Source of the DNA: Undaria pinnatifida | Lineage: Eukaryota > Sar > Phaeophyceae > Laminariales > Alariaceae | Length of the DNA: 64,000 nucleotides | Direction of reading: 5' to 3' | NCBI GenBank assembly: GCA_012845835.1 | Contig: JABAKD010000016.1 | Span: 19,460,696 to 19,524,695 of the forward strand | In this document: positions 13,701 to 64,000 of the stretch, piece by piece | Position numbering within the stretch: position 1 is the stretch's first letter | Layout: the number at the start of each line of letters is the position of its first letter | Program-made: the position numbers and the translations under genes | The notes under the pieces: generated by a model | Database searches by the model: none | What the model saw: the letters and a program-made list of their open reading frames with translations, nothing else | Told to the model about the DNA's origin: nothing

Positions 13701-15300
13701 CGCTGGAGAGTAAAAGTGACGTAATATGATGAGAAGAGTCGTTTTTGTTTTTGGGGGGCGTGGGGGTTGGGTGGGTGCGGGTTTATGTTGTATGGTGGCA
13801 TTTTGCGCGAGCGTGGGTGCGCGGGTGCGCGGGTGCATGAAAGGGTGATGAATGAAGTCGGTTTTTTATTAGTAGTGTTTTGTTTATTGACGCATGATAT
13901 TTTTGTACAGTAGTGGTCCTTCTATCATGCTGGTTGAGGAGCGTCGGTTGCCCTCTAAGGGGATCGCTCGGCACACATGGCAACAGCCGGAAGTGGCAGT
14001 ATTCAGAGTAGAACCGGTCGTCGCTATCGTGCCGGTATTTCCGGCTGGCATATTCCTGGTACCTGCGCAATACAGGGACCGCTGCTGTACCATCCTATGT
14101 GTCTGGCCGTACGTCTGGACACGTGCGTGCATTGCCCTCCCTAAGGCTGTGTGTGCGTTTTTGTTTTGGGCGCGATGCGTCGCCGCCTGCTAGCACGCCA
14201 AACAGTCGCCGCTTGACATTTTCCAAGAGGAAGTCGTTTTTTTTCGCAAGATGTATCGAGAGGAAATAACCTTTTTGCAATTTTAGAGATTCGTTTTTTG
14301 CAAACTTGAGGGATAGACCTGCTGGGGTACGTAGTAATTATTGGTGCTTCTCGTTGATGGACGACGATGATGTTGCCGCCGTTGCTGACACTGCTGCCGC
14401 TGCTGCTGCTGCCGCTGGTACTGATCCTAATCATTGACGGGACCACGGGTGTCTGAAGACTTGAGGTGACGGGAGAACAGGAGACGAATACAGAGGCGTG
14501 CCTGATCGACCGGCCCCCTTTTTATTGCCCCGTTTTATCCTTGTGGTTGTAGTGGTCGTTGACCTTGTCGTGCTCAGCGGTTCATGGTAGTTTGGCGGGT
14601 AACAAATCACGCACGCCGATATCCGAGTGGTCTTGGTCTGGTTTGGTTCGGTTTGGTTTGGTTTGATTTGGTCTGGTTTGGTCTGTTCTGGTTTGGCCTG
14701 GTCTCGTTTGGTTTGATTTGGTCTGGTCTGGGTTGGTTTGGGTTTGGTTGGGTTGGGGTGGGATAACTTCGTGCCGTTTCGTGCCGCTCCGCTGCGTCAG
14801 CGTGTTGGGAAAGCGGGAAGGGAGTGTTGTGAGGGGGGAAGGCGGTCTATCGCTTTTATGACTATAACAATATGAATAGGTAGGCGTTTGTTGTTGTATT
14901 GACGCGTCCTTTTTTACAACCGTGTGCTCGTCGCTGTTATTTATCGTTTGTTTTTTAGTCTCTGTTAGTTTTTTATGTCACAACTTAATATATATATATC
15001 TCGGGTAGTTTTTTTTTTCATCATTATTCCCCGCGATTATCTAGCATTGCGCCGTTCCTGGTTGCTGCAGTTAGCAGTACAACCCTTTTGGGACCCACGT
15101 GCACAACCGCCAAAGGGAAGCACGGTCTCACCAACCTTCAAGGTTGCACGAGGTGCATTAATATCTACGATTAGCAATCATGCCTCGAACGCGTCTTGGA
15201 ACTCCTTGCAGTTCCGAGACGAAGTGTGCGTGGTCTCCTGTTATGCCCAGCCCAGTAAAAAATAACAGCGGCGCCGGGTTATAACCTCTTTGGGACTTGA
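13701..15300. other. Intergenic stretch without a recognised gene
   Basis: Contains a plus-strand ORF of 99 residues at 13894-14193 that resembles nothing I recognise, a CTG/CCG-rich patch near 14370-14420 and a GGTTT-type simple repeat at about 14635-14760. The ORF lacks signs of selection visible by eye. Confidence 0.4.
14635..14760 (+). repeat. GGTTTGGTCT simple repeat
   Basis: Degenerate pentamer/decamer array of GGTTT, GGTCT and GGTTC units. Confidence 0.7.
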
Positions 15301-17991
15301 GAGGGGGAAAACGACGCATTTTGTCGTTTCACGTCTTCATTGTTGAACATTACTTTTTGTGTCTTCATCCCTCGAGATACAGCATACCGCAAGCTCCCTC
15401 CCGCCCCCCCGTACCTCCCACCCCGCCCCCCCGCCCCGTCGTTCCTGGAGCACAACTTCGCCGCTCTGACACCAGTGGATCTGAGCAGTCGAGAATCTTC
15501 TTCAAAAGACAATGGGCGGAAAACTGATTGCTACCCGCCCCTGGCTGACCCTGCTTGCCGCCATAATCAGCCTTTCTGTCCGTCCGCCCCACAAACACCA
15601 CGTTTACCAACGTGACCACGTTTACCAACGTGGGTCACAAACACTACGTTTGACAACGTGGGCCACAAACACCATGTTTGCCAACATGCGTACTACTGCA
15701 GTACCCATGGTACTAGTAGATATTCGTATGCATGAATGCCGGTAACGCTTATCATACCTGGAATGTCTGGTATATTCGTAACGCGACCAAGATATACCTG
15801 GTAACAGGTACCTGGTTTACGTTACCGAGAGACATGGTGAAAATCAAGCCGATTGCTTACGAGCTGATTTCACACCAGGCGTACGAGTGTTAACGGCCCC
15901 TCCTTCCCTGTCCCCCCACGCTTGCTACGCTTGCTCTGCTTGTCACAAGTAACGAAGCGAATCAGACCCTACCCAGCCCTGCCTCAGGCACGTACTACTC
16001 ATGCAGCAGAGAAGCAAAAACGCAACGGGTACAAGGGAATAGAAGCAGGGTATACTTATAACCCCCCCACCCGTTGACAGCACCAGTATCACGATTGGGA
16101 ACACCACAACGCCGTCGTCTGCTTGTTGAGCACTGAAGAAAAACGCTTTTAGTACGAGTCACAGGCTGCTTCCTATGGCTTCCACCATCACACGAGTAAA
16201 GCAGTCCCTGCTGTCCAGTGACATCTGCAGCGATAATTGCTTTGGGCATAGATAGGGAAATATGAGTACTTTTATAACTCTCCTTCGCTATACCGTTCGG
16301 TAGGCGGTATGCCAGGAGGAGACACCAATAACACCTGGCACGTATTCCCCACCACCAACGGCGATAACACTTTCGACACCACGCACAGAACAACGTAAAA
16401 TACCCATATGTATCCAAACGACGCTCGTCACATTTTTCGTTATTTTAGCACTCTTTCAACATCAACCAACCAACCAATCTGTACGCTACTCACGCACTTT
16501 AATGTAGACTATATGCTAAATATATAGTCTATATATGTATGTAGTCCAGCTTAAACCTACCGTAGTTCTTTACGACTGCATGAGCGCGAGAAATATATAT
16601 AATCTCGTTATCCCTGGGCGAAAGCCTTTCGATGAAGCAAATGCGTGTACACGGTCCTGGCTGCCTGCAGCACAACCCTTCAATACTTTAACAACTTTCA
16701 CGTAAAGCTCTGAACTCTCCTAGTACCGAAATGCACTTAGTCTGCAGAAAAACGTATTGGACGCTGCTCCCGGAATCCAATCCGTTTACAGTGCACAACA
16801 TAAGCAGTGTTGGTATCATAGCGACCGCTCCACGCGTGGGTGGGCGCGTGGGTGGGCGCAAGCGTGATCAAACCGCTTGTTCAAATGGAACAAGCACGCC
16901 CACGCATTATACGCCTCCGATTGCACACATCTTGGGCACCAATAAAACTGCTCAAGAGCGGAGTAAAACGCACTTCAGACCACCGACCGAACAATTGCCC
17001 GGACCGATCTGGCTGCAGCAGGCGCAATCAATGTCCGTAACTCAAGAGTCCCAGCCAAAAACGGAAAACAATGACAACACTTTCGCCGGTAATTCTGACA
17101 CTTTCTTCGACCAAGCACAAGTTCTGCTGCGATGATGGGCAAGTAGATACGCCACGTAACGAGAAAAATCACCTCTCTGAAAAACACAAACAATAACAAA
17201 CTCTCTGACCACGAACTCAAAATTGCGGCAAGTAATGCCGCCGGTACGGCGCTCCGCGGGTGAGGATCGAGATGGACGAGTCAGACGTCACGCGGCTTTT
17301 CTCTACGTTCATCACACAGCCAACAGCCACCCGCCAGGGCTCCACGCGACACGGGGATTCAGACGGACGAGTCCGACGTCACGCTGCTTCTCTCTACATC
17401 CATCACACAGCCAACAGCTGCCCGCCAGGGCTCCACGCGAAAAGCAAACGCGGGCTGCCTACGCAATAGGGCGCGAGGTTCAAAAGCAAGCAGAACAGGG
17501 AAGGGAGAAGGGCAAGGATCACTGTGCCTCAACCGGTCGTCAAGCACTGACCGTGGAATTGATGTACAGCATTAGCTGCTGCAATTTGCCATCAACCACG
17601 ACCACCATACTCCGGAACGTGGCTTGGAGCCCATAAGACCTGCACCAAACACGCCGTTCTCCACACGACAATATCACTACCGCTGTTGTGACGAAAACTC
17701 TCATCCAACAGAGCATGGGGTGGGGAGGGGGGGGTAGCTATCCACCATCGCCAAACTCAGCACCCACCCACCCCTCCACCCTTCCACACCCTGCCCCATT
17801 TCGCACAATTCCACTCTATCCTAGAAGCGGCAGAGCAAGCCAAGGACGCAAAACCACCATCACGCCAAACCACTCCCCTCGTCTCCTCCGGTGAAATAAC
17901 AACCACGCAACCACCTCACCCCATCACCCCGCAGGAGCACACGGTGCACACCGCCTCCCCCGCGCCCGTTGTAGAAAACATCAACCGGTCA
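15300..17991. other. Region 3' of kinase copy 1, no gene recognised
   Basis: Apart from the short tandem repeat, it holds sequence alignable with 46040-49166 and a small hairpin at 16507-16529 (arms GACTATAT / ATATAGTC). ORFs here are short and not shared in frame with copy 2, so coding is unlikely. Confidence 0.45.
15592..15687 (+). repeat. Short tandem repeat, unit about 28 bp
   Basis: About 3.5 units with the core CACGTTTACCAACGTG, which is itself nearly self-complementary and could form small hairpins. Confidence 0.6.
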
Positions 17992-20361
17992 TTATCTCAC
18001 GCGGTTGGCATACCCCACGCGGCTAGCGTACCAGGCTGACCCGCCGTACCAGCCCTGACCACGGTGTCCAGCTTGGGGAGGGTAGTAATCCGCCCCACTC
18101 ACCACCGTCGCCTGGTGCGCGAAGGACCCACATGCGGCAACGGGCCGCTGGGAGGGGACGCCAAGCGCATACCGTCCGCCGTTGCTGCACGCGACCTGGC
18201 GAGCGGCACTGGGCGAGACCGGGAAGTAACGGGCATCGCCACGCCACTCACTGCCACTCACATCGACGCCATCACCATATCTGCCGGAGACGTTGCCGCC
18301 GCCACCGGCAGCCACCATCGGAGGAGCCCTCGTAACAGCAAGAGCAGGAGCCACACATCCTTGGTGTGCGGGTCGGTGGAAGGCACCTGTCTCTCGGAAG
18401 GCGGATCGTTGGTGGTGGCGCGGGCTGTCGCCACTGCTCTCGTTCCCTCTCCTTGAGCGCGTGCCCGAGCGAGGGGAAGCGTTGCCGCGAGTTCGACGGG
18501 TGTTCCGGCGATGGAAAGAGGCGACGCCACCGTTGCCGCCGCTTCTGCCGGTGCCACCACCACTACCGTGACTACCGCTACTGTGGCTGCTGCTACCGCT
18601 ACTACTACCGCAGCTGCCGCTACCGTGACGGTGGTATCCGCTGCCGTGGCCGCTACCCATCGGGCTCTTCCACTCTGCGCGATGGTTGTGGCTTGAATTC
18701 GGTGTCCGTACTGCGGTATGTCTAGGTAGGTGTATGGCGTTCCCATTGGCCGTATTTTTTTTGTGATGGTGGCTGTAGTGGTGGTGGTGGTGGCGGCGGC
18801 CGGGAGCGCTGGCGGCTGGTCTCGCGTGGCGAGGAGTGTAGGACGCCCTGTCCCCTCCTTCCCATACACTTCCTCCTTCTCCACAGTCGCCTCCCCCTTC
18901 TTCTCCCCAACCCCCATATCTTGCGCTACGAGGACTGGAAAACGTCTCTTCCCTTCCACCCCAACCCCCTCCTCCGTCGCCTCTTTCTTCTCCCCCCCAC
19001 CCGCCGTCTCTTGCGGGTCGGGGGCTGGAAGTCGTTTCTCCTCTTCCACCCTGTCCTGGTCCTTCTCGCTCACCCCATCCTCCTCCTTCCCCGTCGCGTT
19101 CTCCTCCTTCCCCCCATCCTCCATCTTTTGCGAGACGTGGGGTGCAAGATGTCGATCGTCCTCCTTGGCCTCTCCATATGTCCCCGCCAACCCAGAAAAC
19201 CGTAGAAGGAGTCACATACCCTCCCTCGTCTCCGTCGCCACCCCCACCGCCGAACGTGTTACGGCAGGTGCTGCTGCCACCGTTGCCGCGCGTTTCCTGG
19301 TGTGGGGTAGAACTCCCAGCTTGCATGACCTCCAGAATACCACCCGCTTTTCTCCCCACGAGCGGCGTTGGTGGTGGCGGCACGTTAACATGAGGCGCCG
19401 GGGCGAGCCTCGGGAAGCCGAGGTGGCCTGTTGCCGCTCCGGATGTAGCCGACCCACCGTCTACATAAGTAGCCCCGGGGGTGACCTCCTCTGTGACCCG
19501 CGCCACGGCGGGCTTTGGTGCCGGCCCCCGAACGGCGTAGCCATCAACGTACGCTCCTCCACCATCGTAGCTACAACCAGCGCCTTCACCGGTATCATCG
19601 ACGGCACCACCCATGCCCACCGGCGTCACGACGTTACCCTCCGGAATGGAGTAGCGCACCGCGCCGTCTCCTCTGTCGACGGTGACAGTTGCGGTGGTGG
19701 TGGTGATGGCCGCAGCCGTGGCAGCGGCGTTAGGCGCGGGGAAACTAGCTCCGCCACTGTCGACGACAAGCAGACCGGGAGGAGGTCTCCGGACGCTTGC
19801 TGTACCATATTGTATCCCGTCTGCTGTATGATCGGCCGGCCCGCGGGGAAGACTCCCCAAAGACGTACCACCATCTTCGCGACCACCAGCGCCACCATCA
19901 CCGCCGCCACCAACAACACCGCCACCACTACAAAATAGACCAGGAGGAAGCCTCCGGACGCGTGCAGTCTCTTCTGGTGCTGGGTCCTCTTTCGCAACGG
20001 CTAGTGTGAGGGGAAGGTCCCCAGCATAACGAACATGAGAATCGGAGATGGCGGCGGCTGCAGCAACAGTGTCAGAAGCAGCAGCACTAGCTGCACCACC
20101 ACCAGCAGCATCAGAAGCGTTTTTCTCCTCAGGAAGTCCCACCACTCCAGAAAGGACTGCAGTAGCGCCAGTTTCCAAGGTATCGGTTGCTGGAAGAGCT
20201 CCCGATACAGTTGCAGCGGCAGCTGCAGCCACATCCGCGGAAGAGGCTTTCTCAAATTTTAGCTGACGGCCGTACAGGCCGATCATGCCCCTCAGCAGAT
20301 GTTGCATTGTGGGGCGCTCGCTGGGGTTGGCCGCTAGCGCTGGGTCGATGAGCTCGATGAG
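17992..20361 (-). CDS. Kinase copy 1 last exon: end of C-lobe plus low-complexity tail
   Basis: Starts LIELIDPALAANPSERPTMQ after an AG at 20362-20363, completing the kinase C-lobe with its conserved arginine. It then stays open for 789 residues to TAA at 17994-17992. The tail has Ala-rich, GGWGE-like, poly-His and Gly/Ser-rich stretches and RG-rich pieces (HRRNTRRTRGN). The final residues ASRVGYANRVR are conserved in copy 2 (ANRAGHANRVRR), so the frame has been kept to the very end. Confidence 0.8.
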   Translation of the reverse strand, partial: LIELIDPALAANPSERPTMQHLLRGMIGLYGRQLKFEKASSADVAAAAAATVSGALPATDTLETGATAVLSGVVGLPEEKNASDAAGGGAASAAASDTVAAAAAISDSHVRYAGDLPLTLAVAKEDPAPEETARVRRLPPGLFCSGGGVVGGGGDGGAGGREDGGTSLGSLPRGPADHTADGIQYGTASVRRPPPGLLVVDSGGASFPAPNAAATAAAITTTTATVTVDRGDGAVRYSIPEGNVVTPVGMGGAVDDTGEGAGCSYDGGGAYVDGYAVRGPAPKPAVARVTEEVTPGATYVDGGSATSGAATGHLGFPRLAPAPHVNVPPPPTPLVGRKAGGILEVMQAGSSTPHQETRGNGGSSTCRNTFGGGGGDGDEGGYVTPSTVFWVGGDIWRGQGGRSTSCTPRLAKDGGWGEGGERDGEGGGWGEREGPGQGGRGETTSSPRPARDGGWGGEERGDGGGGWGGREETFSSPRSARYGGWGEEGGGDCGEGGSVWEGGDRASYTPRHARPAASAPGRRHHHHHYSHHHKKNTANGNAIHLPRHTAVRTPNSSHNHRAEWKSPMGSGHGSGYHRHGSGSCGSSSGSSSHSSGSHGSGGGTGRSGGNGGVASFHRRNTRRTRGNASPRSGTRSRRGNESSGDSPRHHQRSAFRETGAFHRPAHQGCVAPALAVTRAPPMVAAGGGGNVSGRYGDGVDVSGSEWRGDARYFPVSPSAARQVACSNGGRYALGVPSQRPVAACGSFAHQATVVSGADYYPPQAGHRGQGWYGGSAWYASRVGYANRVR

Positions 20362-23300
20362 CTTCAAAATACGCGGTAAATAGATTACGTGGGACGGGGA
20401 GAGAGTGGGGGTGGGGCAAGGATTGGTGTTAGCGGCAGGGATGGGCGGAGGCGGCAGCAACGGTAGCAGTAGATGCTGTGGAGGTAGATACCTTGTCGGG
20501 AAGATAAATGAAAGGGATATGGAAGGGGAAGAACGGGCGGGGGTATTACGGCGGGAAAGCCGAACCGCGGTATCGTATTGCATGAACCATCGCCAGAGAT
20601 CTCATTGCAAAATCCACACATGATTAATATCCCACGTTAAATCCACGCAGGTTGTCCCTGTGGTTCATACTTCTAAAGGAATTAATAGCTCTACAGGAAT
20701 TCGACGAGCCATTTGTAATCAGGGACCAGCAGGGGGGGAGGGGGCGGGGCGGGGCTGCAACGGCTTCGACTAAATTGGTCGATACTCGATGCTTGTTGGA
20801 CATCAACTGTCCTTACGTACGTACGGAGGAAGAGGCATCCAGAAACACACAAACGGCCGTACCTCATTGCTCATGTGCTGGAACTGAGCAGACACAATGC
20901 TCGGGTTGAGGACGGCACTTCGAAAGCTAGGTTCCGTCAGATTCCTTATTGTGATATACTCCTGCGCGTGGCGTCACGTGCAAAACCAAGTGAGCAGGCG
21001 AGGGGTTAATATTTACGTCGAGGTCAAGGTCGAGGCTAAGGTCAAGCCCAAGGGTCAAGGTCGAGGCCAAGGTCAACCCCAAAGTCAAGGTCAACATCAA
21101 GGTCAACGTCGAGTTCAATGTCAAGGTCGAGGTCAAAGTCAAGGTCAAGGTCGAAACCAACACTACGGCAGGTGGTACCCCAATTTTTTCCGAGAATAGG
21201 CCACCGGCGCACGAGGTTCTGTATCTCGATAAAAAGCGCTCATAAAGATAATTTTATGGGCTTTTCTGCAGCATAGTGAACCGTTTCCTGGTGGTGGTGC
21301 CCATCGCAAAGAAACCGAAAGCGCACATGCTTAATATTGCAAAAACTAAGGTAGCCACTAGCACAAGCCTCATCAAAGCCACGATAGGGGGAGGGTACCC
21401 CAAATCTCGTTATGGAAAGAAGCAGTTGAGGAAAGAACAAAGAAAGCAGAAATGAAGCCGTGATTTTGAGCCAAACCAGAGTGTCGGCGATTACGCACGT
21501 AATTGTACGCAGTAATGGCGGAGGGAGGGGAAGGCGTCTGTTAGCGTGGTAACAATGCGGGCTCACTCACGATGTAGCTCCTTGCAGACTCGGCATCCAT
21601 AGCCACCAACCGCCTCTTGTCGTCCGCTGTAACGCACAGCTAACGTTACAAGCAACGAGGTAGAAGGAAGCGATCACGGGTGGCGGAGGGCGCGGCGGGG
21701 GGGAGTAATTTCTTACTTATTCGCCGCGCCGAGGACGGATTGTACGCGGGGACAAAGAGAAGTGCAAGGAGCTGAAAACGTTCATGGTATAACATATGCG
21801 TATGATACTTACCAGGTATTGACGATAAAAATTGACTCGGCGAGGACGAGAACATTAATACGGCGATTATGTAACTGCGTGGCAATGAAGGGATTCACAC
21901 GACGAGAAGGAAACTCATGCGACCCTGGTGATGACGAGGTGACACACATGCTAAGACGGTTGTGACGACATGTGGCTGCCGGAAATTAAATCAAACCACA
22001 ACCCTCAAATCCTAAACCCAAAACCAAGGTGGGCAATGGTGTGAGGTTGTGAAAGTCCAAAACACAGGGCACTCGCCTATCGTTAATCGCGTCTGGTGGC
22101 TTGCTCACAACGTTAGACATGCACCATGGCCACTGGGCTAGCAATCAGCGCTGATCGCCATCATAGCTCCGTGGGCATGGGGTATCTCTAGCTAAAACAC
22201 GATATGGAGTTCAAAAAAATCCCAATGCACACTGCCGGTGTATACTGATTTATATGAATAATCTCTAACAATGTTGGGTTCGAATCCCCGCAACGTCCTT
22301 CTTCGACACGCTATTCTTGCCAAAAGCCTCTTCCAATCTACCCTTAGATTTACCCTACCCTACCCTACCCTACCTTACTCTACCCTACCCTACCCTGCCC
22401 TACCCTACCCTGTCCTACCCTACCCTACCCTACCCGCCATCCAATCCTCAGGCGGTCGAATTCTCAAGCTCATGCCAATTCATCACAACAATTACCTGGC
22501 TAGCGAACATGTTGGCGAATTTACACTCCACCTTCGCCACCAAAACGAGGACTATGTGCGCAAAGGCGAAAACGTCCTGACTGGGATGGCACGGAACCTG
22601 TCTACCCTGCATCGCTTCGGGCGGAGTTCCCCCGAGAGTTCCCCCCCGCCGCATGTCACCGATCGCTGTTGTTGTTGTTGTTGTTTTCACGGCGCGTTGG
22701 TGTGAAGTTTATGGACGCGGGTAAGAACAGGAAGGGCGGAGGGAGGGGCGAGAGTGTTACGTTCGGCCGAAATGTTGGTTGATGGCTGTGGTGGCGGTGA
22801 TGGCGTTAGCGGCAGCGTTGGCGGCAGCGGTAGCGGTAACAATGGCAGTATCGGTAGCAGCGGTAGTAGCGGAAGAACATCTCCGAGCGAAGAAAGATGT
22901 GCTTTAGTTTATGATACGCATACACGGAAATGCCGAGGACGGAAATGTGACAACCCAAAGCATCCAACTCATTTATTGCACATGCACCGTTCCTAACCCC
23001 CCCCCCCCCGCCCCAACCCCACTCCGACTTCGCCACCCCACCGTCCTCCTCTATCCCGCGCAAAACGCTTCTCGAAGCCAAAATCACACCACAGCCCACC
23101 ACAGCCCACCACACTACACAGCACACTACACCACGGCAAACCACAGCAGACCACAGCAGACCAGACCAAACTACATGACACGACACGACACGAAACGACA
23201 CGAAACGACACGAAACGATACCACACGACACCACACCACACAATACCACGCCACACCACATACCGCACCACTACTCAGTTTTTGATCGCTCACCACGGGC

Positions 23301-26300
23301 CAGGCCAAGGTCCGCTATCTTGCCCGTTGTTTTGGTACCCGGGCCGGAGGAGAAGACTAAGATGTTCTCAGCCTTTATGTCGTTGTGCACGTAACCGTTA
23401 TCATGCATAAAGCTAGCCCCGGTGCCGCCCTCGATGATCAGACTGCAAGCATTTCCGGGATTCAGCGGAGACGGAGGGGAAGGGGGGGGGTGTTACCATT
23501 GCCATACACCGCCGTAGTTCGTAGAGCCGGGGGGTGGAGGGAGGGTGAAGGGAGGGGGGGGAGCGTGCTCATTTGTTACTTGCCTTAGTCGTTTGACCAT
23601 TGACCACGCATCCCTTTCGAGACGGAGCACCATTCCTATTCCTACTATTAATAAAGACACCTCCAACATTTGGGCGCTCATTACGCTTCTTCCATATACT
23701 ACATAGAAACTGTTTGCTCATTCTGTGCCCGTCCTGTTTCGCCGTCCGCAGCCACCATCCATCTCCTAGGATAGCGATCGTTTTCTCGCTACTCTCTAGC
23801 CTATAAAACTCTTCCATGTCACATCCGTCCAATTTCCTCATCTCCTCCTCTAACGCATCCCGTTCCTTCTTGTGTATTTCACATTCTTATGCTGCGAGAG
23901 TCCTACTCTCTGTTGTTGTCCCACACGAGCACATATTTGTACGCACTTCCTCCTCCTCCCGAATACTGGCATATCTCTTTCTTCTTTCTGGTAGGTCCAG
24001 ATCCCCTACATGAAATCGATGTTTCAGTCTTTTCGCCTGGTCCATTGGGCCGTGCAGATACGTTTTCATTCCAATATCTTCCCTCAACCCCCCGTATATC
24101 TCAAAGTGCTTCTCCTCTTTTACCTTATTTCTTGGCGCTTGCCTTTCCCTTTCTTCTATTCTCTTACTTTTGTCTTGCATCCGCTAAACTTCTCTGTAGA
24201 CAGTACCTCCTCTCCGTCTCTCCCTATATCCTTCTATATTTTCTCCACTACGTTGTCCCATCTTATTCCAGCTCGCCCTTTTGTTGTTTTCTCCCATAGT
24301 CTACAGTATTATCAACCATGTCTGGCAACCTCTTTTCTGGCATATTCTTCACTTTAAATTGCCATTTGAACTTTCTCGCGTCTCTATTTGTTTTTAGTGG
24401 GTAGATTCCTAGTTCTGCTCTTAGTACTACATTACTCGTCATACTTGGGCATGCTAGAATCTTTTTAGCTGCTGTCATATGCACTGTTTCCAGTTGCTTT
24501 ACGAATTTCTCGTTCCCTTTCCATGGTTTTCCTGGATACTCTAACTTTAGTACAATCACAATCATCAGAATACATATTTTATTCCTAATGTCAAGGTGCG
24601 GGTCTGTTAGGATAGCGTCCGTCTTGCCTACTTGTGATTTGCCCTTTCCTATTACTTTCGCTATGTGTGCATCCCAAGAGCAGTCCTTAGAGCTATCTAC
24701 CCCAAGGTGCTTATATTGGTCTACGATCGGTAGTTCATCTTCTCCCCCCCCATTTAAAGTTTACCGGATTCACCTTATCTTCGTAACATATAACTACTGC
24801 GCATTTTTTCACGTTCGCTGTTACTCAACATTTCCTAGTGTACCCTAGTGCTTTCTCTATATGTTTCTGCAATCCTCCAGGTGTTTCTGATATCCCCACG
24901 AAATCATCCGCAAACATCAACCCCGACACCGTATCTTCCCTCATCGTAACTCCTTTCTTTGCTGCTTCGACTGCTACTATCATGTCTCTAACATATACCT
25001 TGAATAGATTGGGTGATAGTGTACATCCCTGCGCAACTCCTCGTAAAATATGAACATATTTGGATATTTCCCCGTCCAGCATCACAGCACTTCTAGCACA
25101 TTCCGTCAATGCTTTCTCCACATCTTTCCTCCGATCCCAACTTCCCACATACTTTTCCGCAACCCACTCCTCCATACTAACTGTGTCATAGGCCTTCTGT
25201 ACATCTAAGAAGAAACAACACGTCGTTAGCCGAGCGCCTCTCCTCCCTTGAATTATCTTACCTCATGCCTACGCAACTGCGGCGTGGTCCAAATCTTGCT
25301 TGCCCTTCGCTTATTTTTTCGTCCTCGTCCAACATTGCTCCCATTCTATGGTTCAAAATCTTACAGAACTTTGCCTATGGTGCTTAACAGCGTTGTTCCT
25401 CGGTAGTGTAATAGGGCCAGCCTTATCTCCTTTCTTGGATAAGTTTACTGCTATTCCTTCTCTCCACCTGTTAGGCGCGCACACGTTTTTCCATACCCAA
25501 TTATACAACATAACCAACATGATAAGCATACTTTCTCCCCCGTACTTGATACATTAATTCACTATTTCATCTACCCCGGCTCACTTTCTATTCTCAAGTA
25601 TAGCTACACACTTCACTACTTCTGCTCTTGTGAACTATCTCCGTGACCCATCTCAACCACGGTCTTCCCTTTCTGACACACCTACGTTCGCTTCTGCCCG
25701 CGCGCTGATTTCCTTATCGAATTCTACGTCGAACGTTTCGTTGGCTGTGGGCGTTCCTAGCTTGCGGTAATGTTCTACAAGTACTTCCCTCTTCCCCTTC
25801 GAGCTACTAACCATTTTACCGTTCTGTGCTCTCAATGTAGCTATTCCCCTGCCTGCCTCGTCTGCTTGTTGGCCCAGTACCTCCTTCATCCCTACCCACA
25901 TCTGCTTCATCCCGCCATCAAGGTCTTCGTTTGCTTTATGAATTTCGTCTGTCCACAACCCCTTCTTCTTCTTCTTCTCTACCATTTATTTTTATTTTCC
26001 TTCTAGCCGCAGCCTACTCCTCCCATCCTGCCGTAGTTTTAGTCGATATAATTTTTTTCGTACGCCTCTCTCCTTACTCTTATGGCCTATTTTACTTCCT
26101 CTTCCAAAATATTTTACTGCTCTGTTGCATATTATCACTTTCTTCCCTAATACTCTACTTGTTGTGTTCTTCACCAATTGCTCCCATCCTTCTATAACCC
26201 TGTCTCCTGCACTATCTCGTTCCGTATCGTTCTCTGTTGTACCTATTATTTCCAACAGCTCAGAAACACACTCTGCATTCTTGGTCATCTCTTCTTGGAA

Positions 26301-36390: not shown

Positions 36391-36394
36391 ATTA

Positions 36395-37283: not shown

Positions 37284-37300
37284 CTAGGGCTCCGACCCGA

Positions 37301-39211: not shown

Positions 39212-39282
39212 ACTCACCACTTGTGTATGGAAGGATAATCGATTTTTTTATCGGAACGACGTCTATCTACCATATTGCCCAA

Positions 39283-39338: not shown

Positions 39339-39341
<3 letters not shown>

Positions 39342-41800: not shown

Positions 41801-41822
41801 AAATTAAAATGCAGGTGGGACT

Positions 41823-41957: not shown

Positions 41958-41982
41958 TATCCCGGACCCGACTTACCAGGTA

Positions 41983-42651: not shown

Positions 42652-42659
42652 GAGAAGGC

Positions 42660-54100: not shown

Positions 54101-57100
54101 ACCCTACCCCACCCTACTCTACCCTACCCTGCTCTACCTTACCTCACCCTATCCTACGCTACCGTACCCTACTAAAGCATACTCTACGTTAACCTATCCT
54201 ACCCTACTCTACCCCACCCTACCCTGCCCTACCCTACCCTACCCTACTCTTCCCTATCCACCATTCAATGTCCAGACGGTCGAATTCGCAAGCTCGTGCC
54301 AACCCACCACAACACTCACCTGGCTAGCAAACATGTTGGCGAATTTACACTCCACCTTCACGATCAAAACAAGGACCATGTGCGCGAAGGCGAAAACGTC
54401 CTGACTGGGATGGCACGGAACCTGTCTACCCTGCATTGCTTCGGGCGGAGTTCCCCCGAAAGTTCCCCCCCGCCGCATGTCACCGATCGCTGTTGTTGTT
54501 ATTGTTGTTGTTGTTGTTGTTGTTGTTTTCACGCCGTGTTGGTGTGAAGTTGGTGGACGCGGGTAGGACAAGGAAGGGCGGGAGGCGGGGCGAGAGTGTT
54601 ACGTTCGGCCAAAATAGTGGTGATGGCTGTGATGGCAGCGATGGCGTTAGCGGCAACGTTAACAGTTCCAATGGCATAATCGGTAACGGCGGTGGCAGTG
54701 GAAGGACATCTCCGAGCGAAGAAAGACGTACTGCAGTTTATAAATGCATACACCTAAACCATCCAACCACTTTATTGCACACGTACCGTTCCTACCCCTG
54801 CGCCCCCGGCCCCCACCCCACCGTCCTTCTCCATCCCGTGCAAAACGCTTTCCGAAGCCAACAGAAAAACCACAGCACACGACACCACAGCACAGCACAA
54901 CAACTTCACAGCACAGCACCGCACACTACACCACAGCACACACTGGACCACTTCTCATTGTTTTTCGCTCACCACGGGCCAGGCCAAGGTCCGCTATCTT
55001 GCCCGTTGTTTTGGTACCCGGGCCGGAGGAGAAGACTAAGATGTTCTCAGCCTTTATGTCGTTGTGCACGTAACCGTTGTCATGCATACAGCTAGCCCCG
55101 GTGCCGCCCTCGATGATCAGGCTGCAAGTATTGCCGGGATTCAGCGGAGACGGAGGGGGGGGGTGTTGCGATTGTCATGCATCGCCGTAGTCCGTAGGAG
55201 CGTTGGGCGGGAGGCGGGAAGGCGAGGGGCGTCTTCATTCATTGCATGCCTTGTAGTCATGTAACTTGTGGCCACCCATCCTCTCCAGACGGAAAACCGT
55301 AACCTACAACAATTACAACAACAACAACAGCAGCAGCAGCAGCAGCGGCAGCGACAGCGGCTGCGCCACCGCCAACAACGCCAACAGCACCAACAACTCC
55401 AACACCGCCAACAACGCCAGCAACAGCAGCAGCAACAGCAGAACAACAACAACAACAGCAACAGCAACAACAACAACAGCAACAACATCAACATCAATAG
55501 GAACAATGATGTTATAATAATAAATATCATGAGTGATCGCCGTTGAAGATTATGACATGCTACACATTGTCGGATAGCAAACATAATGGCAACTACACGA
55601 CGTTACGACAATAACACCAACTTCAAAACAAAACAAAATGCTCAGGGGATATATCGATAGGGGTAGGGGGTGGAAATTAAAAACGTTTCTTATTTTTTCA
55701 AGATATTACTTGTTTTTGATGGTAGAGGGAGACCATATAACAACAATCCGAGCAACATAAATTAGATCCCTCGTTTCGTGGATTCCCCATGTTGGCTTGA
55801 TTCTACGCTATGTGATGTGTACGCGTAATCGGCATTGTAGCTCATGCTGCTGCACATTGAAGGATGGCAAACATGGCAGACATTTCGTGATGTATACCAG
55901 AAGGAAAGAATGAAAAAACGAAACGACGATGGCAACGACCTTGGAAGGCAAGACTGGAATGAATATGCTATATATTCTTAGTCAACCTCACCGCATGACT
56001 TCACTCTCGACCATTTTGGTCCGTTTGGCGATGTCTTCCAAAAGATCCCCGTCAGCCAGCGGGTACACCAGCCAGAAGTTGTTCTGGTCGGTATCATTCA
56101 TTCCCAGCGCCTGGTTGATATGGGGGTGGTCCGGCATCCTACGCACGGCGAACAAATATCAACGTAGGAGGACGGGCGGGGGGGTTTAGGAATAGGGGCA
56201 AGGGATAGCGGTGGGATAACAGGCTCGGGTGAATACGAAGGGGCGGGGGAATAGGGAATAGGGACAACGAGTAAAGGTGGATGGACGGTGCTGGGTCAAT
56301 AGCTAAGGAGGGGAGGCGAGGCAAGGAAGACTGTGTGTGTTTTTTCATGTACCTTAAAAGACAGTACGGCGCAACACGTGACGGCACAGCAAAGCACAGC
56401 ACACTAAAAGCCGCAGCGTGTGGCACCGCCGCAAGGCACGGCACAACACGATACACCACAGCACAGCACAATATGGTACAGCACACGTCACTATTAATAG
56501 ATATTATGCCAAGCGATTTTACAGGGTAGCAGACAACCGCCACTACAGAGGGACTTCTACCGTGCAGCGGTAAATCCCCTAGGCTGCTTTCACTTTCTGG
56601 AAAAAAATTGTGAGTGTTCGACGTTGAAGCTCAGTCATGCCGCACATTGTCGAGCGGCAACAAAACCTTAATAGCGACGAAGCGCTGCACAGCAACAGCA
56701 CCACGAACGCGATAACAACAAAAGACAACAGCGCTGCACACCAACAACAGCAGAAGTAACTCGATAGTATCGAAAGACAAAGCGCTGAGCACCACCAACA
56801 ACCACAGCAGCCATGCAATAGAAACATTATACAGTACAATGCGTTGCACATCAACAGCAGCGGTAACGCAAATATACTGCAACCCTCGCTAGGATTCGTG
56901 CTGGTGAATGTTTGAAACTGGTGTCAACCATGTGCATAGGTGGGAAGCAGGAAAGACCCAACCCAACCCGAGTAAACCAAGTCCAGCCCAACCAAACCCG
57001 AGAAGATGCTGGGATCGTGCCTCATTCACCACCTTACTAGCCATTACCCTGATCCCCGTCGTCGAATGGGACGCGCACGCACCAAAACACGCATAAAAAA

Positions 57101-60100
57101 ACGGGCATGCGGGTCTAGGGATCATCCCCTATTGTTTTACATTGTCGGAAATCAGAATCTCGCTGTGCTCGAAAATAAAATTGAAAGACAAAGAGCTGCA
57201 CAGCAACAGCAACGATAACGAAAAATAAAAAATCAATTACCCTGCACACGTCCTCACCTGATGAGGACATCCATTTCCGCGAATAATCCCATCCGGCCGA
57301 ATCCCATGTCTCCATCGCCACCCTGGTTAGATGTCGGCGGGGGATTAGGAAGGGCACACGCGCTCAGGTACACCGTATACAGCATGTCTATTGGAGTGAC
57401 CACACATCGGACAGATCACAATCTAGATTATCAAGTAACCACACATTGAACAGATCACGATCTAGATGATCAAGTAGCCACACATGGGACAGATCACGCT
57501 AGGTGATCTATTTTACGGAGATCTATCATAGTTAGTCGCATGAATGACAAGATAAAAACTGTGGGGAGGGAATAAACATCCCCGTTTGCTTTTAGCATTC
57601 ATTCGAGAGTATGTTTGTTTCCCGGTATACTAAACGCATTACAGATCCCTCACACCAGTACAGACCAGTCGTCAAATAGGACAGCTCCACTCGACTGAGA
57701 ATGGGGCAGATGCTGCCTTTATCGTGTTCCACTTCGCCCAATTTACAATGGACCTCAGGGATTATTGAAAAATAACATGTATCTGTCGGGGCATGATGTG
57801 TAGTGCAGGATCGGTAGAGTAGATCGTGATCTGTCCAATGTGTATCCTCCGGCAGATGGGGAAAAATAAAGCTTTAGCTCACCACACTTCCACGTATTTT
57901 CTTACGCGTCGTGTGTCGTTTCATACGCGTCGTGTGTCGCTTTAGAAGACATGCTGTATGTGTTGTACTGTGCGTATGCCCTTCCCAATTCCCCGCCGAC
58001 ATCCAACCAGGGGGGCGATGGAGGCGACATGTCGGGCGTCATGGGGTTCGGCCGCATGGGCATTTTCAGCGAGGTGGAAGTCCTGATCAAGTGACCCAAT
58101 CCCCCGCCGACATCCAACCAGGGGGGAGATGGAGGCGACATGTCGGGCGTCATGGGATCGGCCGGATGGGCATGTTTAGCGAGATGGAAGTCCTGGTCAC
58201 GTGTTCAGGACTTCCACCTCGCTACACATGCCTATGCGGCGGAACCCCATGACGCCCGACATGTCGCCTCCATAGCCCCCTTGGTTGGATGTCGGTGGGG
58301 GATTGAAGGGTACACGCACAGGTACATGATATACAGCATGTCTATTGGAGTACCCACACATCGATCACGCTCTAGGTGATCTATTTTACGGAGATCTATC
58401 GTAGTTAGTCTGTTGAAAGACAAGAAAAAAACGGTGGGGAGGGAAGAAACATCCCCGTTTGTTTTTAGTTTTCATTCGAGAGTATGTTCGTTTCCCGGTT
58501 GACTGAACGGCTATACAGAGCCCCCACACGAGTACAGACCAGTCGTCACATAGGACAGCTTCAGCTCGACTGAGAAAGGTGGAGATGCTGCCTTTATCGT
58601 GTTTCATTTCGTCCAATTTACAATGGACCTCAGGGATAGGTGAAACAGATCATGTATCTGTCGGGGCATGATGTGTAGTGCAGGATCGGTGTAGTACAAA
58701 TCCACCCCAGCAATTATGTTCTATAATAGAGCATCCGGATTCCACCCGGCAACCTGATCTTTGTATAGGCAACGCAGACCATACAGAGCAGGGATCGGCC
58801 TTGTCTGAAAGACGCAAATCTTCAATAGATCATCAATAGGAGGGATGATGTCGCCTGTGCGATGTGTTCAAGTAACGGTAAGAAGGACCATGGTGCACGG
58901 TGCCATAAGGGGAGGGCGGGCGAGGGTGCACTCATTTCATGCGCATACTCTCGCATCCCTACAATGCCGGCACGGAGCACGTCGGAGTTTCGTCGACCAG
59001 GCAGATCTCGCGTGCGCCAAGCGTGAACATGTTGATTGCTAGGGGAGATACTGCAACATATTGAGCTTCTCTTACCGTAATTATATTTATTTGCACCTGT
59101 GGCACCGGCATTTTTATTGTTCATGCTACAAGGAGCAGCGTGAGATTCAACATCGACAACTAGAAATAAGTATTATCAGAAGAAGGGAGGGAAGAACGGA
59201 GGTATGACGTAAGGAAGGTACGAAGCAATGCCTGCGGCCGCGAGCAGACACACAATCAAAAAAGCGAAACGAAAAAAAAAACTTACACGAGAACGTGACC
59301 CGGGTGCCAGGATGTACTTGTACATACAGGATGTAGGCACCGCGGAAGCAGGTCCAATGCCTCACAATCAGAAAGTCATCACAACCATCACCATCACCAC
59401 CACAATTTCGTCCCTGGGAGTGCTAAATAGTAGTTTTATAGCAGGAGTGATCGACGTTGAAGCTCATGCTGTGCACATCTTCGGATGACAAGCAACAAAC
59501 TGGCCGGTATATAAAGAGTACTACAGTACGAATGACAACATTCAAAGCAGTAGCAAATACATGCATACTTGTATGACGCGATTTTTCTTCGGCTTCTCTT
59601 CTGAGGATCTTTCCATTGCCATGGTACTTGTATACCTTGTCCATCCAAAACCGACCTTGAGAGAAACGATGAAAACGCAACTCAGTGAGCAATGACACGG
59701 TCTGGCCACAATATCAGTAGTATTGGCAACCGACGTGAGGTACGGCAGAATAGAGGTGTACCGATTATTTCATGATGCTCCTCACTCGAGAGGAGCTCTA
59801 AAAGAAAAAAAAAACTCTCCCAAAAACTGAAATGGGAAAAAGATGAAACTGCTCCAATATCCAATGAACAATTCCATGGCCTCCGTAGGTACACCACGAA
59901 AACAATTGCAAAATAAATCCGAAAATTCCGACGACTTTGGGCTAAGAAGTCCCGTGATTCAGAACACCTTTCAGACAAAATTGCTACAGTACGATATCGC
60001 TATCGCAGAACGCGCCCAAACACAACTACTGCTACTGCTATACTAAACGCTATATAGTCCAACGACATCGGGGAGCTTTTCACTCGACGACCCCGACCCC

Positions 60101-63100
60101 GTCACCACTCGCAATTATTCTGGTCAACAAAAAAAAGGGCTACTCCTATGTTTTTTTTTTCCTTTTATTTTTCACGCTTCGATTTTCCAGCTTCTGGACA
60201 AGCCGTAGTCACAAGTGTCGTCCCTCCCCCCCCCCCGGTTCTTGCCTTCAACTTTTATCGCGCATCGGGTTCAGCAATCCCACTGCTCGCCCATTTTACA
60301 TCGAGTGTTGCTAACTCACGCTCTGGCGCTTTCCGCCAGTCAATTTGTGCGCAAGAAAAAATCCCTCCGAATTTATGCGAGTATGCACTCGGGGGGGCTC
60401 GAACTCACGAAACTCACCTATACCAAGCTCGAGGATAATCTGATACGTCACCGGGGCGACCGGCCTCATGGTATCACTTGTCAAGTTTCACCGCCTTGGA
60501 TGTCTTCATGGTGCACGTGATTCCGAGGGTATCCCGAAGACAAAACAATTCGTAAGCCCATCGGGTTTATTTTTGGAAGTAGCTTGTGAAGAAAAAACGC
60601 GGGTACAACTCTAAAGAAATAACACGCTTAAGAAAATTGAGCTATCTCACCGCTTTTAAGGTTTTCATGGCGCCGGTGAACCCAAGGTCCGGCATGGACA
60701 CCATCCTGACACAGCCGGAGCCTCCCTCCCCCAAAACCCTCCCCAGAGCCATCCCCGGGGGGTCCACCGTAGCGGCAGTGCCAGCAGTAGCAGCAGTTGC
60801 AGCAGCAGACACCACCCTTTCAGCAATGAGGACGGCGATAGGGTCGCCGGTGGCGCGCGCACGCTCTACGCAGGCGTGATGGTACTTGCCCGGGAACCAG
60901 CTCTTAATTGCACCGGGTACGCTGTTAGCCGGGAGGGGGTGGAGGAGCTCCACCGTGGGAGATACGGCCACTGCCGGGGTTGCGTCGTGCTGTGGTGGGG
61001 GGGGGCGACCCTAGATAGGACGAGACGAGCGGGGAGGGGTAGGGGGGGGGGAGGTGGGGTGATGACAGGGGAGGTGTGAGAGGCGGAGAGAGGGGGTGCG
61101 CGGGGGGGAGACGACCATAGGTGGGATAAGACGAACGGGTGGGGGGGGGGTTGGAAGAGGGGGTTGAGGGTAGGGATATGTGAGTGAGGGTAGGGCAAGG
61201 GGGTTGAGGGCAGGGAAATGGGGCTGAGGGCAGGGAAGGCCGGATGAGGGCAGGCGACGAGGGGTGAGGGCAAGGTAATAGCGAATTAGCGCAGTGGACG
61301 AGGGGGGGGGATCCTTCAACGTGTGTGCAGTGCGCACGGACAGGGTGAGTGTAGACGTGGTTGGCAGAATGTTTGAGACCATGGCGGTGGTGGATTGGAA
61401 ATGTCAAGAAATGTCCTCGCATATAGCATGATGGGGGGAGCGGGCGGGCGGGCGGGCGGGCGGAGGGGGTTACACCACGCGCGAGCAGGTAAAGCGCTCT
61501 TCGTTTGTAGTTTTTCAGCGCCGTCAAACCCATCGCCGCTATGTGGTGGGCTGAAATTCGAGATCAATACTCGATTGGTGTACAGCAGGCATTCTTGGAG
61601 ATGGGAATGGGGAGGTGTTACCACAGGCGAACACAGTTATTTATGGTTTACACACTGCATAGTTTTTCATTACGGCCGAACCCATGGTGGTGGCGGGTCA
61701 GGTCTCTGATACATTCCAGTATACTGACGCAGTTCTCGTAAATATCTACTGATGGAGGCTGCCAGTGCCCAGATATTGATGGGAGTACAACCTTGAGGTA
61801 CGCATGATACCCACCAAAATCTGAAGACTCAATCGGCTATTCTAATAGCAGTGGAAATGCTGAACAACGAGCACTGTGTGTATCATACCTGGTGGCTATA
61901 AACAAGAGAGCTTGTTTCGGCTTGTCACGAGGTGCTCTTAAATCGGGCTACCCGCTACGAGCATAGCGCTTTCTTCATCTACCGGGACTACTGATACCGC
62001 TAGTGGTGGTGGTGGCGGTGCTGCGTTTCCTGCTTGCTGCTCGCGGGCGATGCGATTTTTGCTCGTTGCACCATCCTGACGAAGGCCCGCAAATCGGTCA
62101 CCACTGGCTTCGCCAACCCACGTGCCGACTACCGTCACAGGCAGAAGGCTTCGTTGGCTTGCCTAGCCTAGTAGCCTAGCGATTTCGTTTTAATAGTCGT
62201 GATATCCTGCCGAATCGCAGCCCTATGCACTGCGTTGTATGCAGTTTCTCGGCCGATTTTACGTCTACCGTTTTGTAGGCGCTAGTGCCTACCTGGCGGT
62301 GCCCTTGCAAGTGCTCTATGCTATACTAGTGGTGAATACTGGTGATCACTGCTGCCGTACGATCAAGTTGCACGCCCGCTGTTGTGCAAAAACTAGTAGG
62401 TGGGGTAGCTGCTGCTGCCGGTGTTAGCCCGTGAAATGCATGGTGCTGAAATAGCATCCCACAGTACAAGTACATAGAGGGCGTTTTGTCTGTACGGACC
62501 GTTGCACCTCGCACGTACCGCTCTAAACACAAGTTGATAAGAAAGTAAAGTTTACCGCCGGCGGAGTTTTCGGCGAAAGGGAGGCGGAAGGGGAGGAGGG
62601 CGAGATCAAGGATGAGCACCAAAAGGAGTGCCCACCTGCAACCCCGAGAGAGTCCCCTCGAGCGTACCGGGGGTACGCCCCTCCGGTGCGGAGCTATGCG
62701 AGGGTGGGTTAGGGTGCCATAGGGTACTGCAGGTGCTCGGCGGGTGTGCGAAGTGACTGCTGTGGCTGATGTAATGTTTGCGCCATGGAACGATCACCGC
62801 GCTGGATCGAAAAGAAACGCCACACCAAGCAAGATCAAAAGACGCTTTGCCTTCCTTCGAAAACCACCTCAGGCCCAACGGATGACCACCGAGAAACACT
62901 GTGCCACCTCGTGGATCATACACTCTCTCACCTGCTGACCGCCGTCCGCATTAACTTCTTGGCTCGTCGCCGGCTCGCTGCCACGGTTATCCTCGCGGGT
63001 TGCAGGAGGAGCAGGATGAGCGCTCTCATTGGGATGTAATCGTGGCGATCCCATGCCGCCCTTGTTCTGTTTAGATTTGACCTCAGATTGCTGCTGATGT

Positions 63101-63787
63101 TTGGAAATGAAGAAAAATCACCTTTCGGTCGGGGGCGATTAGTTTCTCGAGCGCGAATGGTGAAGTCCGCCGCACCTCGGGTCTGTCGGCCGATGCACTG
63201 AACAGGCGGTGCTGTGAGTTTCGCCTACCTGATAGCTCGTTCGGTTTTTCTTTCCTAGCGCGTGGGTGTTGTGATGTGTATGTGATTACCAACGTTTTTG
63301 AACAATTATAATCATGGAACAACCCCCCCCCCCAAACAGCGGAAAAGTAGTAAAACTGCGGCGTGTTGTTCTGATCGCGAAGAGCACACTGATGATGGTG
63401 CCGCATGCCACCGGAGCAACGCAACCCAAACCACACAGCACACGACGCAAACCAGCTGAACAATCGCTTGCCGCACCTAACGCACCCAACAAGTTCGACA
63501 CGAATGACAGATCACGGTGCAGAGGTATCCGCTTAACTTGGATTCGGACTGCTTCCTCATCTTCTTCTTGGTTCTTCTGAGGTACGAAAATTTCGACTAT
63601 TTCAGGCATCTTCTATCTGCTCCGTTTCATTTTGCACTTTGCGATTGGGGTACCTGTAGCGTAGACAGCAACAACCCAACAGAAGCGCTGTCAGCCGCCA
63701 GAATGTTTCCGCCCGTTCCAGTACGAGTGCATACCGAGTGTTTGTGTTCCTCGAATATCCCGCCGAGGTCCGGCCGAGGTCCCCCGG
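49167..63787 (-). CDS. Protein kinase, copy 2 (non-RD type, long low-complexity tail)
   Basis: Exons in gene order: 63787-63654, 63054-62932, 60989-60651, 57322-57258, 56138-55992, 55121-54973, 54489-54320, 53324-53256, 51727-51629 and 51107-49167. From the glycine-loop exon on, 2979 bases join in phase into 992 residues plus TGA. Landmarks: LGEGGSGCVRMV, AMKTLKA, AEMDVLI, MPDHPHIN, LVYPLADGDLL, HNDIKAENIL, KIADLGLAR, GTPPEAM, QDVFAFA and NPSERPTM. The lysine, alpha-C Glu, catalytic Asp, Asn and DLG Asp are all present, so catalysis is plausible without RD-type activation-loop control. The tail is shorter than in copy 1 (646 against 789 residues in the last exon). No transmembrane or signal segment is evident in the recovered part. 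Family, substrate and true start are unknown. Confidence 0.8.
51629..51727 (-). CDS. Kinase copy 2 small exon EYMTIRN (33 codons)
   Basis: EYMTIRNLTEPGFRGAVLNP and 13 more residues, CAG to GTAAGA, phase 0 on both sides. It differs from copy 1 by a few residues only, while the surrounding intron has diverged more. Confidence 0.72.
51781..52200 (-). repeat. AAGGTC hexamer minisatellite in a kinase intron, long allele
   Basis: About 420 bp of AAGGTC, GAGGTC and AATGTC units, nearly three times the copy 1 array. It contains internal higher-order repeats of about 130 bp. Confidence 0.85.
52460..53085. repeat. Copy-2-specific insertion with a satellite
   Basis: The flanks align with copy 1 across a single point near 21415, so about 620 bp were gained here or lost in copy 1. 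The insert holds the satellite at 52622-52790 and, near its right end, more AAGGTC-like units. No ORF in it is recognised. Confidence 0.55.
52622..52790 (+). repeat. Tandem repeat, unit about 57 bp
   Basis: About three units of ACCGTATACAGTAGTAGCC, TTGGTCGCCC and AAAGGGGACCCCT. Confidence 0.8.
53256..53324 (-). CDS. Kinase copy 2 small exon TADDKRR (23 codons)
   Basis: LCMTADDKRRLVAMDAESAR plus IYI between CAG and GTGAGT, phase 0 on both sides, same length as copy 1. Confidence 0.7.
54049..54258 (-). repeat. TACCC pentamer array, long allele
   Basis: About 210 bp of CCCTA units with point variants, at the same intron site as 22351-22436. Confidence 0.85.
54320..54489 (-). CDS. Kinase copy 2 activation-segment exon
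   Basis: Contains GGTPPEAMQG and PSQDVFAFAHMVLVLIVK; CAG to GTGAGT, 170 bases, phases as in copy 1. Confidence 0.82.
54973..55121 (-). CDS. Kinase copy 2 catalytic-loop exon
   Basis: CMHDNGYVHNDIKAENILVF and GKIADLGLAR; nearly identical to copy 1, 149 bases, CAG to GTGAGC. The intron before it is about 0.87 kb because it lacks the LINE. Confidence 0.88.
55300..55500. repeat. CAACAACAG trinucleotide array
   Basis: CAA, CAG and GCC units at the site matching 27585-27830. Poly-Gln, poly-Asn or Cys/Leu ORFs on either strand are artefacts. Confidence 0.8.
55992..56138 (-). CDS. Kinase copy 2 hinge exon
   Basis: MPDHPHINQALG and NFWLVYPLADGDLLEDI, then AKRTKM; TAG to GTGAGG, 147 bases, phases as in copy 1. 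Confidence 0.86.
57258..57322 (-). CDS. Kinase copy 2 alpha-C exon (65 bp)
   Basis: GGDGDMGFGRMGLFAEMDVL and IR, CCAG to GTGAGG. It is 15 bases shorter than in copy 1 but keeps phase 0 to 2 and the alpha-C glutamate. Confidence 0.75.
58011..58090 (+). other. Antisense alpha-C exon copy, intact
   Basis: On the plus strand, against the gene: CCAG, 80 bp encoding GGDGGDMSGVMGFGRMGIFS and EVEVLIK, then GTGACC. Length and frame equal the copy 1 exon, so it is an intact exon in the wrong orientation. Confidence 0.75.
58122..58200 (+). other. Antisense alpha-C exon copy, one base short
   Basis: Tandem to the previous copy with a period of 111 bp. It has one base less in the GGGTTCGG region, so the frame is broken; the CCAG acceptor remains. 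Confidence 0.7.
58206..58290 (-). other. Sense alpha-C exon copy, decayed, forming an inverted repeat
   Basis: Reads GGDMSGVMGFRRIGMCSEVE in gene sense. The acceptor is AAG and the donor is lost (AACACGTG). With 58122-58200 it forms a head-on inverted repeat centred near 58200. Confidence 0.65.
58930..59035 (+). repeat. Dispersed repeat family D, copy 4
   Basis: CTCGCATCCCTACAATGCC, GCACGGAGCACGT and CAGGCAGATC blocks, orthologous in position to 30085-30215. Confidence 0.6.
60150..60468 (-). mobile_element. SINE family A, copy-2-specific insertion
   Basis: Complete body and tRNA-like head, poly-A tail as poly-T at 60151-60160 on the plus strand. In copy 1 the flanks are contiguous (CCCCTATGATATCAC at about 31602). 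A possible short target duplication is CCTATG / CCTCATG. Confidence 0.8.
60492..60523 (-). other. Decoy copy of the lysine-exon end, copy 2
   Basis: ITCTMKTSKA followed by GTGAAA, at the same place as the decoy at 31629. Its presence in both copies dates it before the duplication. Confidence 0.45.
60651..60989 (-). CDS. Kinase copy 2 glycine-loop and lysine exon
   Basis: 113 codons, CACAG to GTGAGA, phase 0 on both sides. Encodes HHACVERARATG, an Ala/Thr patch, LGEGGSGCVRMVSMPDLGF and AMKTLKA. Open to the donor, unlike copy 1. Confidence 0.85.
61010..61320. repeat. G-rich GTTGAGGGCAGGG repeat
   Basis: Counterpart of 32110-32420, with GGTTGAGGGCAGGGAAATG-like units. Confidence 0.7.
62932..63054 (-). 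CDS. Kinase copy 2 N-terminal exon (41 codons)
   Basis: MGSPRLHPNESAHPAPPATR and 21 more residues ending DGGQQ before GTGAGA. Same length as copy 1 and open. Start or internal exon, as discussed for copy 1. Confidence 0.57.
63654..63787 (-). CDS. Candidate 5' exon of kinase copy 2
   Basis: PDLGGIFEEHKHSVCTRTGT and more, TCCAG to GTACCC, one codon shorter than copy 1. The first exon, if further upstream, would lie beyond or near the window end. Confidence 0.4.
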
Positions 63788-64000
63788 CTGGAATTAATAT
63801 ATACACAGCAAACTAGTACTACTACTGTAACACATACACGGGTCAACCACAACATACAGGTAGGACCCGACTCTATCACGGCTGGCTCAAATATGCTACA
63901 TACCAGGTACGGTATACTACCGGTATTACTATGATACATCGCTGTACCGCTCGTACTGCTGCTGTAAGGCTTGTCTCACCGAAATAATCCTCTCAACAGC

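Follow-up and report, generated by a model that had tools for sequence, protein, structure and literature searches.

An old tandem segmental duplication carrying a protein kinase gene in the kelp Undaria pinnatifida, probably at the left end of a mirrored kinase gene array

Introduction

Tandem gene arrays are shaped by unequal crossing-over and gene conversion. The RPP8 genes serve as an example of such an array (PMC6771003). Non-RD kinases have been tied to innate immunity (PMC8463890), and a role as immune receptors has been proposed for brown-algal ROCO genes (PMC11378527). In this study we analysed a window of 64,000 nucleotides from the genome of the brown alga Undaria pinnatifida (contig JABAKD010000016.1, here called C22, positions 19,460,696-19,524,695), in which two same-direction copies of a DNA segment each carry a protein kinase gene on the minus strand. 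The segmental duplication that links them proved to be genuine, tandem and old, and very probably the copies represent neighbouring head-to-tail units of ~31 kb at the left end of a kinase gene array on one chromosome. Coordinates of features are relative to the window unless marked C22 or given in Mb.

In comparison with known tandem gene arrays, the locus is alike in having head-to-tail units, mosaic similarity and apparently dead copies, whereas its mirrored half-arrays round one centre set it apart. The array is ordinary in kind, being a tandem gene array, and is notable in its scale, its mirrored arrangement and its catalytic loop of the non-RD type (HND). As in the immune non-RD kinases, the HxD motif lacks Arg; a receptor part was looked for here only by means of a Pfam scan, for which the query was a 392-residue spliced piece of copy 2. 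In common with the brown-algal ROCO genes, this is a repeated gene family in a brown-algal genome, but the ROCO genes encode ROC-COR GTPases and the ROC-COR domain was unmatched in the 392-residue kinase piece, the tail lying outside that scan. A limited search of the open-licence literature, by title or opening abstract, returned nothing dealing with this array. A large mirrored array of non-RD kinases in a kelp genome would be a natural place to seek lineage-specific signalling or recognition genes. With its copies in known order and marked by inserts and stop codons, the array also allows direct tests of gene conversion versus crossing-over.

Results and discussion

Homology of the two copies extends beyond the exons

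Comparison of the window with itself by BLAST gave one colinear same-strand chain, in which 16,900-35,204 matches 48,202-64,000 at 70-82% identity per piece, and a more sensitive self-search added a weak left end (15,339-16,947 against 46,070-48,249, 58-60% identity). When the copies were aligned block by block, identity was 91.7% in exons 1-7 (941/1,026 bases), 76.3% in introns (4,491/5,884), 77.4% in upstream DNA (2,200/2,842) and 81.0% in downstream DNA (767/947). Two blocks aligned poorly, 15,300-16,899 at 52.6% (global alignment) and 28,745-29,339 at 57.6%, and they hold 45 of the 218 gap openings counted across the 11 aligned blocks. Similarity confined to the exons is ruled out by the aligned introns and flanks; since these are homologous, and the copies have the same orientation, the pair is a tandem segmental duplication. 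A preliminary description, made from the letters of the window, had proposed as much on the basis of two kinase genes with colinear flanking DNA, and had named an alignment limited to the exons as one outcome that would speak against it. Its further suggestion, that the duplication is old, is borne out by the intron divergence (K 0.21-0.35), the gap openings and large one-sided insertions. One insertion is a LINE-type (long interspersed nuclear element) sequence of ~4 kb in intron 3 of copy 1 (23,634-27,624, minus strand), which has a reverse transcriptase match and interrupted frames and is absent from copy 2. Conversely, copy 2 contains a 317-bp element (60,151-60,467) that is absent from copy 1 and has relatives elsewhere in the window.

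The spacer is at least partly a portion of a repeated unit

The segment had been described as 17-20 kb long, with a spacer of about 11 kb between the copies. The homology holds, but the size was set by the edge of the window: similarity between the copies continues up to 36,130 and 64,865, respectively, the latter being 865 bases beyond the window end. Likewise, a spacer is present within the window, although it is not unrelated DNA throughout. Pieces of it at 43.2-45.9 kb match, in order, DNA at 80.5-82.9 kb that precedes the next copy, after which the left end of that copy follows (recurrence pairs, window-relative, 43,245/80,469, 44,002/81,344, 45,634/82,623 and 46,485/83,441). The spacer is therefore at least partly the fast-diverging portion of a unit of ~31 kb, this length being the distance between the two left borders (46,070 minus 15,339). 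On that basis the head-to-tail unit of copy 1, consisting of the kinase gene and the so-called spacer, would occupy 15,339-46,069 on the minus strand, and that of copy 2 (46,070-64,000) is cut by the window end, its homology to copy 1 going on past base 64,000. The part at 43,989-45,551 is also matched, at 79-80%, beside the copy at 20.11 Mb, and is thereby assigned to the repeated unit. On the right side, past a further copy, A5, the spacer between copies 1 and 2 is matched only to 43,989; beyond this the DNA resembles that to the left of another copy, A3, the exceptions being short repeats and 0.7 kb that resembles 38,494-39,229. The spacer at ~37.6-43.2 kb speaks against a repeated unit of this length, as the corresponding place in the next unit gives only repeats and one short inverse match.

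The pair might instead stand alone, as a tandem duplication of 17-20 kb in two copies with 11 kb of unrelated spacer in between. This is in keeping with what is seen inside the window, where the alignment ends at 35,204/64,000 and the spacer shows repeats only. It is contradicted by the homology beyond the window end, by the return of spacer pieces ahead of the next copy and next to A5, and by the many further copies, and we consider it extremely improbable.

A Pfam scan of ten open reading frames, eight of them from the spacer, gave nothing above cut-off except the known reverse transcriptase. The spacer stretch 38,494-39,229 recurs at ~72% at C22 19,697,118-19,697,844 and 20,126,349-20,127,077, and may be either a small gene or an upstream element. 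An inverted-repeat element with arms of 163 bases at ~91% lies at 36,389-36,931, and has relatives at 10,016 and, past the window end, at 76,817-77,073.

The kinase array on C22

A search of the species' own genome (511 Mb, 68 contigs) with the copy 2 kinase gave at least 101 matches. Among the matches listed there are 26 exon-5-type segments, of which 24 lie on C22 at 19.48-21.47 Mb and two on contig C1; the series of 24 begins with copy 1. Left of copy 1, no match at E <= 0.01 was found in the window or in the 20 kb further left, 695 bases between the two being excluded. Eight of the exon-5-type copies, at 19.48-19.75 Mb, are on the minus strand and eight, at 19.86-20.19 Mb, are on the plus strand, while the eight beyond are mixed. 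The copies were assigned to types A, B, C and X by similarity only, the X pair being weakly typed. Reading outward from ~19.81 Mb, the types on either side run B A C X B B A, which takes in seven of the eight exon-5-type copies per side and leaves one copy unpaired in each half, namely copy 1 (left) and a C-type copy at 20.19 Mb (right). The midpoints of the mirrored pairs fall within 8 kb of one another (19.8066-19.8144 Mb). With the type numbers fixed there are 420 possible orders, or 60 without X, and chance is therefore a weak explanation of the mirrored order. Thus the gene order, as read from the exon-5-type segments, is mirrored in the opposite orientation, as in an inverted duplication.

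Mirrored gene-type order could also come from a misjoined second haplotype, so that an assembly artefact, in which the assembler has set haplotypes in tandem or mirrored the arms, has to be weighed. However, copies 1 and 2 differ by ~18-28% in their introns and the mirrored pairs compared (copy 2 with A5, A3 with A4, and B1 with its partner) by ~5-13%, and the copies carry different stop codons and insertions. Usual allelic divergence is far below the differences seen between array copies. We regard an artefact of this kind as highly unlikely; in particular, it is very unlikely that copies 1 and 2 are alleles placed in tandem, given their intron divergence and the further non-identical copies on the same chromosome. 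Scans of viral contigs and prokaryote genomes found no relatives there. The B-type copies have an extra exon-4-like piece, inverted, beside the normal one (C22 19,552,125 (+) and 19,552,433 (-)).

History of the copies

In a tree of the five close copies, copy 1 separates first, then copy 2, then A4 from A3 and A5 (support 97, 91 and 99). The 317-bp element is common to copy 2, A3 and A5 and is missing from copy 1, so its insertion most likely postdates the separation of copy 1. In its last exon copy 2 lacks ~440 bp in frame in comparison with copy 1, A3, A4 and A5, and the reading frame stays open. A3 and A5 have identities of 97.7% (2,854 bases) and 93.6% (1,449 bases), and the mirrored partners A3 and A4 of 94.2% and 94.7%; the corresponding values are 86.7% and 91.0% for copy 2 and A5, and 88.2% and 91.5% for copy 2 and A4. 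Coding differences number 6/915 between A3 and A5 versus 13/915 between A3 and A4, and A3 and A5 have a common TAG in exon 2, if that exon is real.

The array would have grown by unequal crossing-over, together with at least one large inverted duplication; its copies may exchange sequence by gene conversion, and some of them appear to have died. A mosaic pattern is seen between copy 2 and A3, which are 97.9% identical over 59,377-60,769 (1.4 kb) as against 86-93% in the other main pieces. Such similarity would fit an exchange of sequence between copies. Weighing against this account of the array, the copies paired by the mirrored order are not those most closely related, and one clean inverted duplication is therefore insufficient to explain the array. 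In addition, the rise in similarity between copy 2 and A3 is partly common to A5 and may be regional.

An identical run of 114 bp in exon 4 was found between copies 1 and 2; in 1,000 trials with permuted columns the maximum was 33, although this permutation test ignores the generally higher similarity of exons. A3, A4 and A5 are nearly the same in exon 4 (0-3 differences in 144-147), and for this reason conversion specifically between copies 1 and 2 was dropped. Between copies 1 and 2, exon 4 shows one synonymous difference in 35 sites, versus 46 in 239 for exons 1-7 together. The likeness in exon 4 appears to be a matter of homogenisation across the family or of constraint.

Structure of the kinase genes

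Exons were modelled from conservation, splice sites and phase. On the minus strand this gave eight exons in each copy, all continuous in one reading frame, and in addition a candidate first exon. Eight of the nine coding exons are equal in length between the copies, the last being 2,370 nt in copy 1 and 1,941 nt in copy 2. The eight pairs of identical length noted in the preliminary description are thus upheld, although its count of ten exons is not. Phases and splice sites are consistent, and exons were recovered in other copies of the array.

The candidate first coding exon (123 nt; 34,060-34,182 in copy 1, 62,932-63,054 in copy 2) has a conserved ATG and a conserved donor, which reads GTGAGA in copy 1. 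A weak match to it lies on the same strand ~9 kb upstream of exon 1 of paralogue C1 (E 0.088, 38% over 42 positions), the next-best of the 18 listed matches having an E value of 0.58. Exon 1 (339 nt; 31,758-32,096 and 60,651-60,989, respectively) encodes the glycine loop and the beta-3 lysine. Exon 2 (53 nt; 30,888-30,940 and 59,628-59,680) was placed by phase and conservation, and its donor is GTAAGT in copy 1 and a weaker GTACCA in copy 2; counting against it, the exon was found in neither of the two paralogues examined (B1 and C1). Intron 2 of copy 1 contains a perfect (GAAG)n array of 125 bases (30,362-30,486). Strands beta-4/5 and the hinge are encoded by exon 3 (147 nt; 28,275-28,421 and 55,992-56,138), the catalytic loop HNDIKAEN and the DLG motif by exon 4 (149 nt; 23,294-23,442 and 54,973-55,121), and the PPE and DVFAFA motifs by exon 5 (170 nt; 22,496-22,665 and 54,320-54,489). 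There follow exon 6 (69 nt; 21,571-21,639 and 53,256-53,324), exon 7 (99 nt; 20,863-20,961 and 51,629-51,727) and the last exon (17,992-20,361 and 49,167-51,107), which contains the end of the kinase domain and a long low-complexity tail.

Copy 1 carries a stop codon in exon 1

The penultimate codon of exon 1 in copy 1 (31,763-31,761), which lies in the kinase domain, is TAG, whereas copy 2 has AAA. Lys is found at this position in copy 2 and in all five paralogues that could be read there (A3, A4, A5, B1 and C1; B2 gave no exon 1), from which it follows that the TAG is derived. In A4, 104 of the 113 residues of exon 1 were read, with the Lys present and no stop. We consider it most likely, on the basis of the TAG, that copy 1 gives either no product or only a truncated one, of ~152 residues provided that the candidate first exon is correct. 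Taken alone, the pair in the window is an ordinary, old tandem duplication, one member of which is probably a pseudogene.

Alternatively, both copies could be functional genes whose roles have diverged, in which case the TAG of copy 1 would be bypassed by unusual splicing or represent a base error. The TAG is the sole stop in the 342 codons of exons 1-7 of copy 1, and the last exon is open for 789 codons. The ratio of nonsynonymous to synonymous substitution rates (dN/dS) between the copies, a comparison over exon pairs already envisaged in the preliminary description, was 0.22 for exons 1-7 (bootstrap 0.13-0.33) and 0.52 for the last exon (0.41-0.65), with 0.55 for the portion after the kinase end; the value for exons 1-7 favours two working genes. 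In both copies part of the exon 1 end, Lys included, is also repeated just downstream. However, the TAG is two bases away from AAA (one from AAG, as in B1), no donor was seen by eye between the beta-3 lysine and the stop, and the downstream partial repeat shows, again by eye, no acceptor at the corresponding position of copy 2. In our judgement this alternative is unlikely, although it retains some weight, and loss of function in copy 1 is preferred. The partial repeat is located at 31,688-31,614 and 60,551-60,477 on the minus strand; it reads ...TMKTSKA followed by GTGAGA in copy 1 and GTGAAA in copy 2, and a like stretch can be read in A4. A mutually exclusive exon arising from it, at 31,664-31,623, was ruled out by the missing acceptor in copy 2.

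The encoded protein is predicted to be a non-RD kinase

Spliced copy 2 matched the Pfam family Pkinase (PF00069) with 85.5 bits, the gathering cut-off being 31.7, which agrees with the earlier assignment of the genes as kinases. In a phmmer comparison of the copy 2 kinase part with solved structures, scores reached 52.5 bits and 704 distinct sequences were matched at E <= 0.001, the best chains by sequence being CaMKII and then PAK4. At the catalytic residues (beta-3 Lys, the Asp of HxD, Asn and the Asp of DFG) both copies have AMK, HNDIKAEN and ADLG; the glycine loop reads LGEGGSG and PPE is also present. Hence, in comparison with PF00069, the protein is alike in its glycine loop, beta-3 Lys, catalytic Asp and Asn, the D of DFG and an APE-like motif, whereas it has HND for HRD, DLG for DFG and PPE for APE. 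In the phmmer alignment no match is seen to the usual alpha-C Glu, Met/Asp occupying the position of this residue in CaMKII or one next to it.

RD kinases have Arg in HRD; here Asn takes its place in exon 4 of copies 1 and 2, A3, A4, A5, B1 and C1, and the sampled family is therefore non-RD. Exon 4 of B2 also has HND, but after a stop, and the extra exon-4-like pieces of B1 and B2 vary. As judged from these motifs, the intact gene most likely encodes a non-RD (HND) protein kinase with a long low-complexity tail. Copy 2 is most likely an active kinase, and its tail, the low complexity of which was judged by eye, is probably disordered. It could be imagined that the array, with its dozens of HND kinases, mirrored and converting, with a conserved core and a quickly changing tail, serves the brown alga as a locus of recognition or immunity with fast turnover, but we regard such a role as doubtful, indeed improbable.

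Other features of the window

No transfer RNA was found in the window by a search for these genes, and an Rfam search gave no match at gathering score. On the plus strand, an open stretch with low-complexity inserts at 1,678-3,225 shows a weak match to Rab-GTPase-TBC (15.3 bits against a cut-off of 25.2). The left end of copy 2 (46,923-47,894) contains a direct tandem duplication of ~0.5 kb at 88.8%, of which A5 seems, from overlapping matches, to carry only one piece.

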